Shown one piece after another: positions 22,564 through 26,657 of a DNA stretch of 64,000 bases. The translations under genes and the position numbers were made by a program. Source of the stretch: Nitrosopumilus sp. b3. Its GTDB lineage: Archaea > Thermoproteota > Nitrososphaeria > Nitrososphaerales > Nitrosopumilaceae. The stretch is from NCBI RefSeq assembly GCF_014078525.1, contig NZ_MU078694.1, positions 1 through 64,000 on the forward strand, given 5' to 3'. How positions within the stretch are numbered: the stretch's first letter is position 1; the number at the start of each line of letters is the position of its first letter. The notes under the pieces were generated by a model. That model was not told where the DNA came from, did no database searches, and worked only from the letters and a program-made list of their open reading frames with translations.

Positions 22564-23649
22564 ATGCGTAAATATATTGTTAGGAAGAATTTTAATCAAA
22601 ATAATCTAGATGAACTAAATGCTCCCAACAGAACCGTTTTCTTTGAAAAAAAGAAAAAGAATGAACCATTCTCTGCCGAAGACATAAAATCAAATAATGA
22701 AATACAAACTAATTCATTAAACCCATCTATAGATAAGAATGAAATAAAAACAAATTTTGAGGAAGAACTTCTTAACACTGAAGCCAGAAAAATATTTGAC
22801 GAATCTATATCTGCAATGGAACAATATGATAAAAAAAGACTAGATAACATTTACAATCAATTGTCAACAGAAAAAAAAATTTCAAAAGAACTTAATCAAA
22901 AACTACACAAAAATTTATCAAAAATAGCATCTGCAGAGTTAGAACTAATAAAGAAAAAAAACCAATTAGAAAAAGATCTTGATGAAAAAACAAAAAAATT
23001 AATCGATTCTGAAAGATTTGCTGCAATTGGAAAATTGTCTGGTAAACTAGCTCATGAATTGCGTACTCCGTTAACTGTGATTAAAGGCTCTGTAGGAGTT
23101 ATGAAGCATAAAAAAGGAGATGTGATAGATGACGCAATAATTCAAAAATTAGAATTGATGGAGGAGTCTGTTTATAGAATGAATAATCAAGTTGAAAAAG
23201 TTTTAAATTTTGTTCAAAAATATCCTCTGAATAAAAAAGAGGTATCCCTAAGAGAATTAATTCAGAAATCTGTATCTTTACTTAGAAAAAACTCAAACAT
23301 TACAATTCTAACTCCAAAAAATGACATCCTATTCAATTGTGATCCAATTAAAATGGAGGTGGTTATAGGTAACATTTTATTAAATGCAGTTCAGGCAATT
23401 GAAAAAGAAATTGGACAGATAATAATTGAAATTACCGAGTCACCTGATTCAATTAAGATCACTATTCAAGACTCAGGAAAAGGAATCTCTGAAGAACTAA
23501 GCGATAAAATATTTGATCCTTTAATTTCCTCTAAAATGGATGGAACTGGATTGGGACTGTCCAGTGTTAAAAATATTGTAGAGCAACACGGTGGAGTGAT
23601 TAATTTCAAAAATAATCCCACTACATTTACTATTATTTTTCCAAAATGA
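22564..23649 (+). CDS. Soluble histidine kinase
   Basis: 361 residues. The N-terminal 70 residues are polar and probably disordered. Then a coiled coil (about 75-150) leads into the dimerisation domain with His164 (KLAHELRTPLTV). The ATPase domain has the G1 box DSGKGISEEL, IFDPLISSKM and GTGLGLSSV. There is no PAS, HAMP or membrane segment. The HELRTP form of the H-box differs from the HDIRNP of the other two soluble kinases. No receiver gene is adjacent, so its partner must be encoded elsewhere. Confidence 0.9.
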   Translation: MRKYIVRKNFNQNNLDELNAPNRTVFFEKKKKNEPFSAEDIKSNNEIQTNSLNPSIDKNEIKTNFEEELLNTEARKIFDESISAMEQYDKKRLDNIYNQLSTEKKISKELNQKLHKNLSKIASAELELIKKKNQLEKDLDEKTKKLIDSERFAAIGKLSGKLAHELRTPLTVIKGSVGVMKHKKGDVIDDAIIQKLELMEESVYRMNNQVEKVLNFVQKYPLNKKEVSLRELIQKSVSLLRKNSNITILTPKNDILFNCDPIKMEVVIGNILLNAVQAIEKEIGQIIIEITESPDSIKITIQDSGKGISEELSDKIFDPLISSKMDGTGLGLSSVKNIVEQHGGVINFKNNPTTFTIIFPK

Positions 23650-23809
23650 TCTAAATTTAATTTGTTTTTTGTATTTTGTCAAAAATTAACTCTTCTTGGG
23701 AATAAAAATTATTTTATAAAAATTGTAGAATGTATTTAAAAATAAAGTGACTCTTTTGTCTATATATTTTGAATCCCCCACTTATGATCAAAGATTCAAA
23801 GGTGTACAT

Positions 23810-24016
23810 ATGCTTGAATCTCACGCCTTCTTCTCAAAAATGGTTGACGAGTTAGTAGAATTCTCAGAATATGATCCTGAATTAGCTGATGGAATTAAAT
23901 GGCTAGATGATCAGGCACAAAAAAAAGGCATTACATTTTATGATATGGTCTTTGAAGTATTATACAAGCATGATGTAAACTCTAAAGCAAAAGAGTGGCT
24001 TAGCACAAGAAATTAA
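23810..24016 (+). CDS. Small acidic protein next to citrate synthase
   Basis: 68 residues from ATG 23810. The frame is open to GTG 23747, but AAAGGTG seven bases before 23810 is a good ribosome-binding site. The product is helical and acidic. Its segment WLDDQAQKKGITFYDMVFEVL resembles EIDHQTQMEGLSFYDVYLDS in the small protein on the other side of citrate synthase. The shared motif is Q-x-x-x-G-[IL]-[ST]-F-Y-D-[MV]. Function unknown. Confidence 0.6.
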   Translation: MLESHAFFSKMVDELVEFSEYDPELADGIKWLDDQAQKKGITFYDMVFEVLYKHDVNSKAKEWLSTRN

Positions 24017-24019
24017 AAA

Positions 24020-25183
24020 TTATTTTCTCAAATCTAATGTTTTGTATTCACAGCCCTCAGGACCGCAATATTTCCCAACGTATGTGGCCTTTGGTCTGTA
24101 CAATGCAGGTTTTGGAGCTGCCTCTGCAAACTTTTCTTCAATAATATGAGCTGCCCAACCCACAACTCTTGAAATTGCAAAGATTGGAGTATTGAGATCC
24201 ATTGGAATTTTCAACATATAATATAATGATGCACTATACAAGTCTACATTCGGATAGATGTCTCTATCTTTTTGAGACTTCATTTCAGAAATAGTTACAG
24301 TTTCTACTTTTTCTGTAATGTCAAACCATGGGTCTTTAGTTTTTGCTGCAAGTTTTCTTGATAGTTCTTTTAGTACTTGTGCTCTTGGGTCATATGTCTT
24401 GTATACTGCATGACCCATCCCCATTATTCTTTCGTTGTTTTTCATCTTATCTTTAATCCATTCTTCTACTTTTCCTATCTCCCCAATTTCTAACAACATC
24501 TTCATGACTTCGGTATTGGCTCCTCCATGTAACTCCCCACTTAAAGCTCCAATTGCAGCACTAGATGCTGAATACATATGTGCTCTAGTAGATGCAACTT
24601 GCCTGGCAGTAAATGTTGATGCATTGAAAGTATGGTCTGCATGAAGAATTAGACACACGTCAAATATTTTTTCAACTTCAGAGTCTGGCTTTTCCCCAAA
24701 CATCATGTACAAAAAATTTGCAGCATGACCAAGCGATGAATCTGGTTCTACCGGATCTAACCCATTTCTAATTCTGTGCCAACTGGCAACAATTGTAGGT
24801 ACTTTAGCAATCAGATTTATTGCCTTTTCATAACTTGCTTCTTTATTTGCAAACTCCTCATCATAATATCCTGCAAGTGCTGCCACAAATGCTTGCAACA
24901 TATCCATAGGATCTGCGTCTTTCCTCCAGTTTCCCATGTTTTTCTGCATTTGCTTTGGGATGTATCTTGCCTCTACTAATTTTGCATTAAATTCTTCGAG
25001 TTGAGTCTTGGTTGGTAAATTATCATAAAGTAGTAAATATGCTGTTTCCTCAAATGTAGAATTTTCTGTAAGATCTAAAATATCAAATCCACGATAAATC
25101 AGCTTGCCTTTTTCTCCGTCAATATTAGATATTCTGGTATCTGCAACTTCAATTCCTCGTAATCCAATGTTTTTAGTTTCCAT
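24020..25183 (-). CDS. gltA: Citrate synthase
   Basis: 387 residues, the normal length for archaeal citrate synthase. It condenses oxaloacetate with acetyl-CoA in the citric acid cycle, which in these autotrophs mainly supplies biosynthesis. Catalytic residues are His219 (GELHGGAN), His258 (GMGHAVYKT) and Asp314 (PNVDLYS), with substrate-binding His184 (HADHTFNAS). The N-terminal LRGIEVADTRIS and IYRGFDILDL are typical. A role as 2-methylcitrate synthase is possible because the families are close. Two small related proteins flank the gene. Confidence 0.95.
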   Translation of the reverse strand: METKNIGLRGIEVADTRISNIDGEKGKLIYRGFDILDLTENSTFEETAYLLLYDNLPTKTQLEEFNAKLVEARYIPKQMQKNMGNWRKDADPMDMLQAFVAALAGYYDEEFANKEASYEKAINLIAKVPTIVASWHRIRNGLDPVEPDSSLGHAANFLYMMFGEKPDSEVEKIFDVCLILHADHTFNASTFTARQVASTRAHMYSASSAAIGALSGELHGGANTEVMKMLLEIGEIGKVEEWIKDKMKNNERIMGMGHAVYKTYDPRAQVLKELSRKLAAKTKDPWFDITEKVETVTISEMKSQKDRDIYPNVDLYSASLYYMLKIPMDLNTPIFAISRVVGWAAHIIEEKFAEAAPKPALYRPKATYVGKYCGPEGCEYKTLDLRK

Positions 25184-25276
25184 ATTGAGCCTATCAGAAA
25201 TCTTCTATTATATTTTCGCCAAAATCATGTCTATGATGTTTAGTAATTAGTCTAAAATGCCAACTTTTGGTCATAA

Positions 25277-25492
25277 ATGATTATTTTTAATCAAAAATTA
25301 ATGAGTCCGATAGAGCGTAAACGTCTTGAAAAATTAGATGATTTAGTACTAAATGCATCATCTAGTGAACTTGAAAAGATTCAAGAAATTGACCACCAAA
25401 CTCAGATGGAAGGTTTGTCATTTTATGATGTATATTTAGACTCTAGTTCATTAATCCATCAAAGTATCAAAAAACCTTTTAGCGAATCTTAA
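25277..25492 (+). CDS. Small charged protein related to the one at 23810
   Basis: 71 residues from ATG 25277, or 63 from ATG 25301 (MSPIERKRLEKL). Helical and charged. IDHQTQMEGLSFYDVYLDS matches the motif of the small protein that ends at 24016. It is divergent from citrate synthase. No known family is recognised. It might bind or regulate citrate synthase, but only location suggests this. Confidence 0.55.
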   Translation: MIIFNQKLMSPIERKRLEKLDDLVLNASSSELEKIQEIDHQTQMEGLSFYDVYLDSSSLIHQSIKKPFSES

Positions 25493-25538
25493 ATTTCATT
25501 CTTAATTTAAATGAGGGCTAGTGGTTTTTTAATTTGAA

Positions 25539-26657
25539 TTGGCAGTACCTAAAACTAAAAAACCTACAACCAAAAAAGCAGTAAAAAAGATAGTTAAAAA
25601 AACAGTGGCAAAAAAAATTGCTAAAAAACCTACTGCAAAAAAATCTACCAAAACTAAAGTAAAAAAATCTGCAAAACCAAAACGAAATAAAGTAATTTGT
25701 ATTTCTCATAAAGAAGACTGTGATGGAATTAGTTCTGCTGCAATAATTCGACAAGCGTTTGGTGGAGATGCAATACTGGTTGACTATCCCGGACAAATGG
25801 AAGCATTAAACCAAGTGGTCTTAGATGAAAAATTGAAATCATTATTTATCTGTGATTTGGGTCTAAGTAAGAAAACTCAAGATGAATTTATTGATATTAT
25901 GACGACATTGAGAAAAAATAAAGTCTCTGTTACTTACATAGATCATCATGACATTGATCCTAATGTTGTCAAAGCACTAGATAAAATCAAAGTTAAAGTA
26001 ATTCATGATACTAATGAATGCACTGCAGTTTTAGCTTACACTGCTTTCAAATCAAAATTAAATGATCATGCATCATTTGTTGCAGCTTGTGCTGCGATTA
26101 CTGATTACATGGAATCTAGACCAATTGGTTCCAAATTATTGCAAATCTATGACAGACAATTTGCGTTGATTAGTGCAACTGTTCTGACATACAATATAGT
26201 AGGACATCAAAAAGAACCTGATTATCTTTTGTACTTGGTAGAAGAATTGGCAGACTCTAAATTTCCTCATGCTATCCCTAACACATTTGAATTTGCACAA
26301 ATTCAAGTTGAAAAACTATCCCAAATGATTACCAAAGTAAAACAAGGAATGAAGACCATGAAAAATCTAGGTCATATGGAAATACTTGATGCAGGTGCTA
26401 GCGGCGCTGTTAATTTTGTTATGGGTTTGTCTGGAAAAGATGTAGGTGTTGCATACAAAGAACGTATAGATCATGGAATTTACGCAGTATCTGTTCGTGG
26501 TTCTAAAGATTGTAAAGTACATTTGGGTAAAATTGTCAATAATCTTGCAACTAGTCTTGGAGGGTCTGGTGGAGGCCATGATAAAGCATGCGGTGCTGTA
26601 ATTCCAAAACCCAAAATAAAAAAATTCCTCACAGAATTGAATAAAAAAATCAAATAG
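25539..26657 (+). CDS. DHH-family phosphoesterase with histone-like lysine tail
   Basis: 372 residues from TTG 25539. Residues 1-48 are a tail of K-K-A/P/T repeats (VKKIVKKTVAKKIAKKPTAK), like histone H1 tails. The DHH domain follows with EDCDGISSAAII, CDLGLSKK and the eponymous YIDHHDID, residues that bind two Mn/Mg ions. The C-terminal DHHA1-like substrate domain ends in GGSGGGHDKACGA. Archaeal members are RecJ-like nucleases or cleave short oligonucleotides and cyclic dinucleotides. The exact substrate cannot be assigned. The basic tail suggests nucleic acid binding. Confidence 0.88.
   Translation: MAVPKTKKPTTKKAVKKIVKKTVAKKIAKKPTAKKSTKTKVKKSAKPKRNKVICISHKEDCDGISSAAIIRQAFGGDAILVDYPGQMEALNQVVLDEKLKSLFICDLGLSKKTQDEFIDIMTTLRKNKVSVTYIDHHDIDPNVVKALDKIKVKVIHDTNECTAVLAYTAFKSKLNDHASFVAACAAITDYMESRPIGSKLLQIYDRQFALISATVLTYNIVGHQKEPDYLLYLVEELADSKFPHAIPNTFEFAQIQVEKLSQMITKVKQGMKTMKNLGHMEILDAGASGAVNFVMGLSGKDVGVAYKERIDHGIYAVSVRGSKDCKVHLGKIVNNLATSLGGSGGGHDKACGAVIPKPKIKKFLTELNKKIK

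Follow-up and report, generated by a model that had tools for sequence, protein, structure and literature searches.

A conserved small protein beside citrate synthase in ammonia-oxidising archaea, with copies in viruses: a possible regulator of carbon metabolism

The citrate synthase gene of Nitrosopumilus sp. b3 lies between two short open reading frames, which raises the question whether these are related to each other and whether either of them acts on the enzyme. The window, that is the whole analysed stretch of 64,000 nucleotides, corresponds to C2:1-64000 of a genome of 1.79 Mb. ORF A (positions 23810 to 24016, forward strand) encodes a small protein of 68 aa and is convergent with gltA (24020 to 25183, reverse strand), whose product of 387 aa matched Pfam Citrate_synt with an E value of 2.7e-140; the two genes stand tail to tail with their stop codons 3 bp apart. 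ORF B (25301 to 25492, forward strand) is a diverged paralogue of A which encodes 63 aa, or 71 aa from an alternative ATG at 25277, and is arranged head to head with gltA. After a gap of 46 bp it is followed on the same strand by its usual neighbour, a DHH/DHHA1 phosphoesterase-like gene (25539 to 26657, forward strand), in whose protein the N-terminal stretch of about 50 residues is lysine-rich. The arrangement is in accordance with the original prediction, which had placed two related small proteins on either side of gltA. The C-terminal tail of the citrate synthase ends close to YVGKYCGPxGCEY; both cysteines were present in 54 of 56 sequences, the tails being read by eye, and could form a redox or metal site.

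The shared motif was recovered as G-I-T-F-Y-D in A (23927 to 23944, forward strand) and G-L-S-F-Y-D in B (25412 to 25429, forward strand), both from the sequence and from a pattern scan of the genome. Of the motif first proposed, the part G-[IL]-[ST]-F-Y-D-[MV] held, while the spacing Q-x-x-x-G had to be corrected to Q-x-x-G (QKKG / QMEG). The whole 1.79 Mb genome was scanned with a degenerate DNA pattern that encodes G-x-[ST]-F-Y-[DE]; it matched twice on the forward strand, exactly at A and B, and not at all on the reverse, and the reversed-pattern control gave one forward and no reverse match. A wide occurrence of the motif unrelated to gltA, which had been considered at the outset, was not seen in this genome.

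The likeness of A and B reaches past the motif. Comparison of 16 A-type with 13 B-type sequences by hhalign gave a probability of 97.3% and an E value of 2.6e-11 over 50 columns, and the family profile searched against its own genome at E <= 10 returned A and B and nothing else. These results support the suggestion that the two genes are paralogues, a duplicated small gene. When A was used as a single query, second, B-like matches appeared in other genera among the matches listed (E 6e-6 to 9e-4), and the B of some genera (e.g. L067, L069) is A-like over about the first 50 residues. Dating of the duplication by a tree was attempted with 34 rows, but its resolution was poor, with stars on 3 of the 31 inner branches, and the timing was dropped. 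Selection was estimated in the close relatives, namely Nitrosopumilus, Nitrosarchaeum and their kin. For A, 79 distinct DNA sequences gave a pN/pS ratio of 0.066; for B, 21 distinct sequences compared over their first 50 codons gave 0.27. The mean pS of 0.62-0.65 places the synonymous sites near saturation. A is thus under strong purifying selection, and B is under purifying selection as well.

Linkage to gltA was counted in the home family (f1, taken as Nitrosopumilaceae). The count covered 136 gltA places in 135 genomes. At 116 of them A was convergent with gltA and no more than 500 bp away, with a median gap of 9 bp between match ends; at the remaining places it lay within 6 kb (14), on another contig (2) or was undetected (4). 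B was divergent from gltA within 500 bp at 98 of the 136 places; 11 others had it within 6 kb, 3 at a greater distance and 3 on another contig, and at 21 it was undetected. The conserved order of the block in this family is DHH-B-gltA-A-h126-MOFRL-FeADH. Among 38 of its loci the genes within 3 kb of gltA were A in 33, DHH in 31, h126 in 30, B in 26, YjgF in 24, MOFRL in 23 and FeADH in 15, a count which favours A and B, as a match to one or the other had served to retrieve 34 of the 38 loci. Since conservation extends to the whole block, linkage within this family is not special. The gene h126 (L064:4505-4885) encodes a 126-aa protein with no Pfam match.

B tends to stay with its other neighbour. 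At 17 places B was either separated from gltA by more than 500 bp or located on a different contig; 8 of these were looked at, and in 7 of the 8 (L063, L067, L084, L086, L093, L101, L102) the DHH gene still adjoins B, although in 4 of the 7 loci B is 2.2-13.7 kb away from gltA. As the DHH gene stays next to a displaced B, the preferred interpretation of the gltA-flanking pair is that a gene was duplicated locally and that the second copy came to lie in another transcription unit. A reading with about even chances, and compatible with the others discussed below, is that B works with the DHH phosphoesterase-like protein, its flanking of gltA being a trace of that duplication. The faster evolution of B noted above is in its favour, and so is the position of B in 12 loci of the families f3 and f8, where no family member was found. 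Against it stands the eighth displaced locus, G009, where B is on another contig without DHH and DHH stays by gltA; the 8 loci also cover a part of the 17 displaced places. The displaced copies, and the 12 loci of f3 and f8 with no family member found in the B position, lend no support to the suggestion that B binds or regulates citrate synthase.

For A the first alternative to be weighed is that A and B are small genes with an unrelated role which sit in a slowly rearranging block, which would make the adjacency to gltA uninformative. The conserved gene order in the home family speaks for it, and inertia of this order explains much of the linkage. Three g15 genomes that lack A and B have gltA directly adjoining h126, and in L086 and L097 A is apart from gltA (2.8 and 0.75 kb) yet still with h126. 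A luciferase-like gene was found near gltA in both f2 loci (2/2), which are without A, and part of the neighbourhood therefore antedates A. On the other side, A remains by gltA in home-family loci that have h126 at a greater distance or in which no h126 was seen (L083, L093; L072, L085). Further counter-evidence comes from f3 and f8, where all 12 A carriers in which gltA was found have A convergent with it, at 15-1362 bp (G152 of f3; G171, G201, G216, G223, G225, G227, G231, G237, G257, G275 and G279 of f8). Almost none of the home-family neighbours is left there: of 14 reference neighbours searched besides A and B, the luciferase-like gene was found in 9 loci, malic enzyme in 7 and no others, in loci that were picked for holding A and are in some cases short on one side. 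In those 7 loci the malic enzyme gene separates A from gltA and has the same orientation as gltA (L109:6219-7472; L107, L113, L118, L135-L137). Taken together, this positional explanation is tentative, somewhat short of an even chance, and stands level with the regulatory reading of A given below.

Loci without A were also compared. A was absent from the gltA flank in 4 home-family loci (g7, g15), in the 2 f2 loci and at all 7 f8 gltA loci from genomes without a typical A, one of these loci being seen for 0.6 kb on that side; A is therefore dispensable. The gltA columns conserved at >=95% in 43 A-bearing sequences were examined in 13 A-less ones, and none of them departs in at least 5 of the 13. 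As no gltA column changes with the absence of A, there is no sign of a lost interface. The proposal that the small protein binds or regulates the enzyme is plausible for A, which lies by gltA in other families too, while this comparison of gltA residues counts against it.

The upstream regions of A and gltA were then considered. A TATA-like element (23761 to 23771, forward strand) lies 39-49 bp before the ATG of A, and TTTTGTc.ATATatTTTGAAT, at about 40-50 bp upstream of that ATG, was kept in 75 distinct sequences of close relatives (capitals: >=90%). This box may explain the apparent conservation of the frame upstream of the ATG of A (GTG at 23747). A second TATA-like element (25206 to 25216, reverse strand) lies 23-33 bp before the ATG of gltA, and TATTATaTTTT was kept in 15 distinct gltA-B intergenic sequences. 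Both elements are putative promoters, and the conserved TATA-like box of A suggests that this gene has a transcript of its own, running towards gltA. A sigma-70 and terminator scan of positions 23600-25600 gave 7 promoter-like matches against a shuffle mean of 8.6 and 2 terminator-like matches against 0.6, which is uninformative for an archaeon.

The distribution of the family extends over three families of one order. A was found in 132 and B in 115 of 151 home-family genomes, A at E <= 0.01 and in 93 of the 97 good genomes; all of these counts come from single-sequence queries and are minimum figures. When genomes were drawn from the whole class, 177 of 300 matched the family profile at E <= 1e-3, all of them in f1, f3 and f8, and in a phylum draw 67 of 398 genomes matched at E <= 0.01. 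The three matches of the latter draw that fell outside the order, in G502, G566 and G703 (E 0.0075-0.0094, unrelated frames), were taken as chance, as was a match in G210 with E 0.003 within a 517-aa frame. The family f8 is probably Nitrososphaeraceae and f2 probably Nitrosocaldaceae. Judged by this distribution, rather than by a tree, A is probably older than the split of the three families. Weak orphan homologues were seen in six f8 genomes, each off the contig of gltA (G180, G245, G267, G285, G289, G296), and G168, outside f1, has A with no gltA found. The MAG contig G038:C6 carries two diverged members (L088:4324-4515, L089:4476-4691) amid many small ORFs and is possibly a mobile element; PHROGs searched with 6 of its ORFs gave one weak match of unknown type, and a viral origin was unsupported.

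Homologues of A were found in two virus contigs. The first, 59% identical to A, was obtained by a pattern scan with A in IMGVR_UViG_3300031576_000158 (L224:4989-5201), where it sits between two pieces of the terminase large subunit within a run of genes on the same strand. The sole public-phage match of the first terminase piece was Nitrososphaera phage Pro-Nvie1 (27%, E 1e-6), pointing to an archaeal nitrifier as the putative host. Two genes after this viral A lies a dual-specificity phosphatase gene (L224:5486-5875; Pfam DSPc, E 4.2e-18), possibly another host-control gene. The second copy, 76% identical to A of the window, is in the 65 kb record IMGVR_UViG_3300010939_000064 (L226:5995-6201), near genes for thymidylate synthase, PD-(D/E)XK, HNH and ERCC4 and 1.3 kb from the contig end. 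This contig carries a 515-aa terminase (L229/L230); its relatives in public records come from bacterial phages, at about 23%. The viral status rests on this terminase ORF and on the split terminase of L224; phrog_2, with matches in 13 of 14 control genomes, is a weak viral marker when taken alone. Citrate synthase was not detected in either virus record, which may be a fragment in each case.

The two viral copies were joined in 0 of 200 bootstrap trees, and their nearest host A sequences, in a weak tree, are from different genera. Both copies stand in a viral setting with host A as nearest rows, the pattern of virus-borne host genes, at weak tree support. PHROGs with the first copy and Pfam with the second gave nothing above the cut-off, public phage records held no A homologue above chance (best E 0.3), and a viral scan with an A of f8 gave no match. 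Scans of B type gave none or one stretch (L234), whose frames scored E 6.2 at best when compared with the family profile, and a viral B was rejected. As such scans need short peptide matches, two viral copies are a lower bound.

The structure of both proteins was predicted. The model of A has helices at residues 2-19, 23-39 and 43-67 (mean pLDDT 76.7, pTM 0.54) and that of B at 3-18, 21-36 and 41-54 (mean pLDDT 80.2, with residues 53-63 below 50), and both proteins are acidic, with a pI of 4.66 and 4.77 respectively. The motif of A falls on the turn and the start of helix 3, which begins at residue 43, and its G-I-T-F-Y-D may be read as a helix-cap motif. The motif was dropped as a functional signature, as its core G-[IL]-[ST]-x-x-D opens helix 3 of the predicted structure and has the look of a helix start. 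Neither A nor B reached a Pfam or NCBIfam cut-off (NCBIfam: none at E <= 10), and a Pfam-A scan of 22 family members at E <= 1 listed 7 families, none above the cut-off. The best PDB sequence match was a kinase at E 0.069, taken as chance, and Foldseek against PDB with the A model gave no significant match.

A further alternative is that A is a dimeric DNA- or partner-binding regulator of ribbon-helix-helix type, whose viral copies would act on host or viral transcription. Thirteen chains were aligned to the A model and 7 of them reached Z >= 2, including 8u12 with Z 5.4 (50 aligned residues, 2.2 A), 3ft7 with 4.5, 1ea4 with 4.4, and 2k5j and 1u9p with 3.3 each; we take these five of the seven (1ea4 being CopG and 1u9p Arc) to be ribbon-helix-helix proteins. 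The layout LDxxAxxxGI[ST]xxxMVxxVL of A presumably recalls the helix-turn-helix of such proteins. The likeness of the model to CopG, Rv0298 and Arc is weak at Z 3.3-5.4, however, and by the guidance of the alignment tool Z < 8 may reflect just a common arrangement; the best Foldseek E value was 3.4. No ribbon-helix-helix family was among the Pfam matches of the 22 members. Where these proteins have an N-terminal strand, A has a predicted helix and no predicted strand, and it is acidic. The N-terminal strand of ribbon-helix-helix proteins pairs only in the dimer; the single-chain model of A is all-helical, and its residues 1-10 have a mean pLDDT of 68. Such a regulator is unlikely on this evidence.

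The reading that is put forward for A is action in trans on citrate synthase or on the entry of carbon into the oxidative TCA branch. The purifying selection, the linkage to gltA across families and the viral copies in records with no gltA detected are in keeping with a regulator acting in trans, for which citrate synthase would be the simplest target; this reading is as tentative as the positional explanation. A would be a small acidic protein of three predicted helices, made from its own promoter, and its simplest action would be to bind citrate synthase and tune its activity; the target, the binding, the promoter, the age and the direction of effect are what we infer here, whereas the family, the homology, the linkage, the selection and the viral copies were observed. 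B would be the product of a duplication, since diverged and at present associated with the DHH gene. The occurrence of A alone in at least two head-tail viruses would fit a free-standing protein that redirects host metabolism in infection.

Known small regulators offer likenesses and differences. CP12 has conserved cysteine pairs, and A of the window, which has no cysteine, does not share this feature. CP12 works on the Calvin cycle whereas A sits by gltA; it resembles the proposed role of A in being a small host metabolic regulator which is also virus-carried, cyanophages carrying cp12 (PMC5082946). VcdP of Vibrio cholerae offers an analogy for a small protein acting on citrate synthase, as would be the role of A: it binds and activates GltA (PMC8672173). 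It differs in being a 29-aa protein encoded by a dual-function RNA and in acting on an enzyme described there as hexameric and NADH-inhibited (PMC8672173), while A is a 68-aa protein whose gene stands tail to tail with gltA. AcnSP of Synechocystis alters aconitase kinetics (PMC7336809) and is like the proposed role of A a small protein tuning carbon into the oxidative TCA branch. AcnSP has 44 aa, is derived from aconitase and is plasmid-borne (PMC7336809), whereas A showed no apparent resemblance to the enzyme encoded beside it.

Within the accessible open-access literature, no paper was found that deals with a small protein associated with citrate synthase in these archaea, and no description of how ammonia-oxidising archaea control the step into citrate. 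These archaea occur in very large numbers in the sea. They fix carbon via the 3HP/4HB cycle (PMC11494057). The host genes reported in their viruses, in the portion of PMC11849493 at hand, include amoC, MCO1 and two oxidoreductase classes, and a small regulator is not mentioned in that portion. A broader proposal, which is doubtful at present, is that an undescribed family of proteins of about 68 aa is common to host and virus, and that viruses of ammonia-oxidising archaea use a captured, dedicated regulator of citrate synthase during infection to change how host carbon is divided between the oxidative TCA branch and biosynthesis, as an archaeal counterpart by analogy of the cyanophage CP12. 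If this is true, a small regulator would join amoC and MCO1 among the host genes in these viruses. A may thus be an undescribed regulator of carbon metabolism, and a conserved, virus-carried small protein beside gltA would give a direct handle on the control of the citrate step in these archaea.
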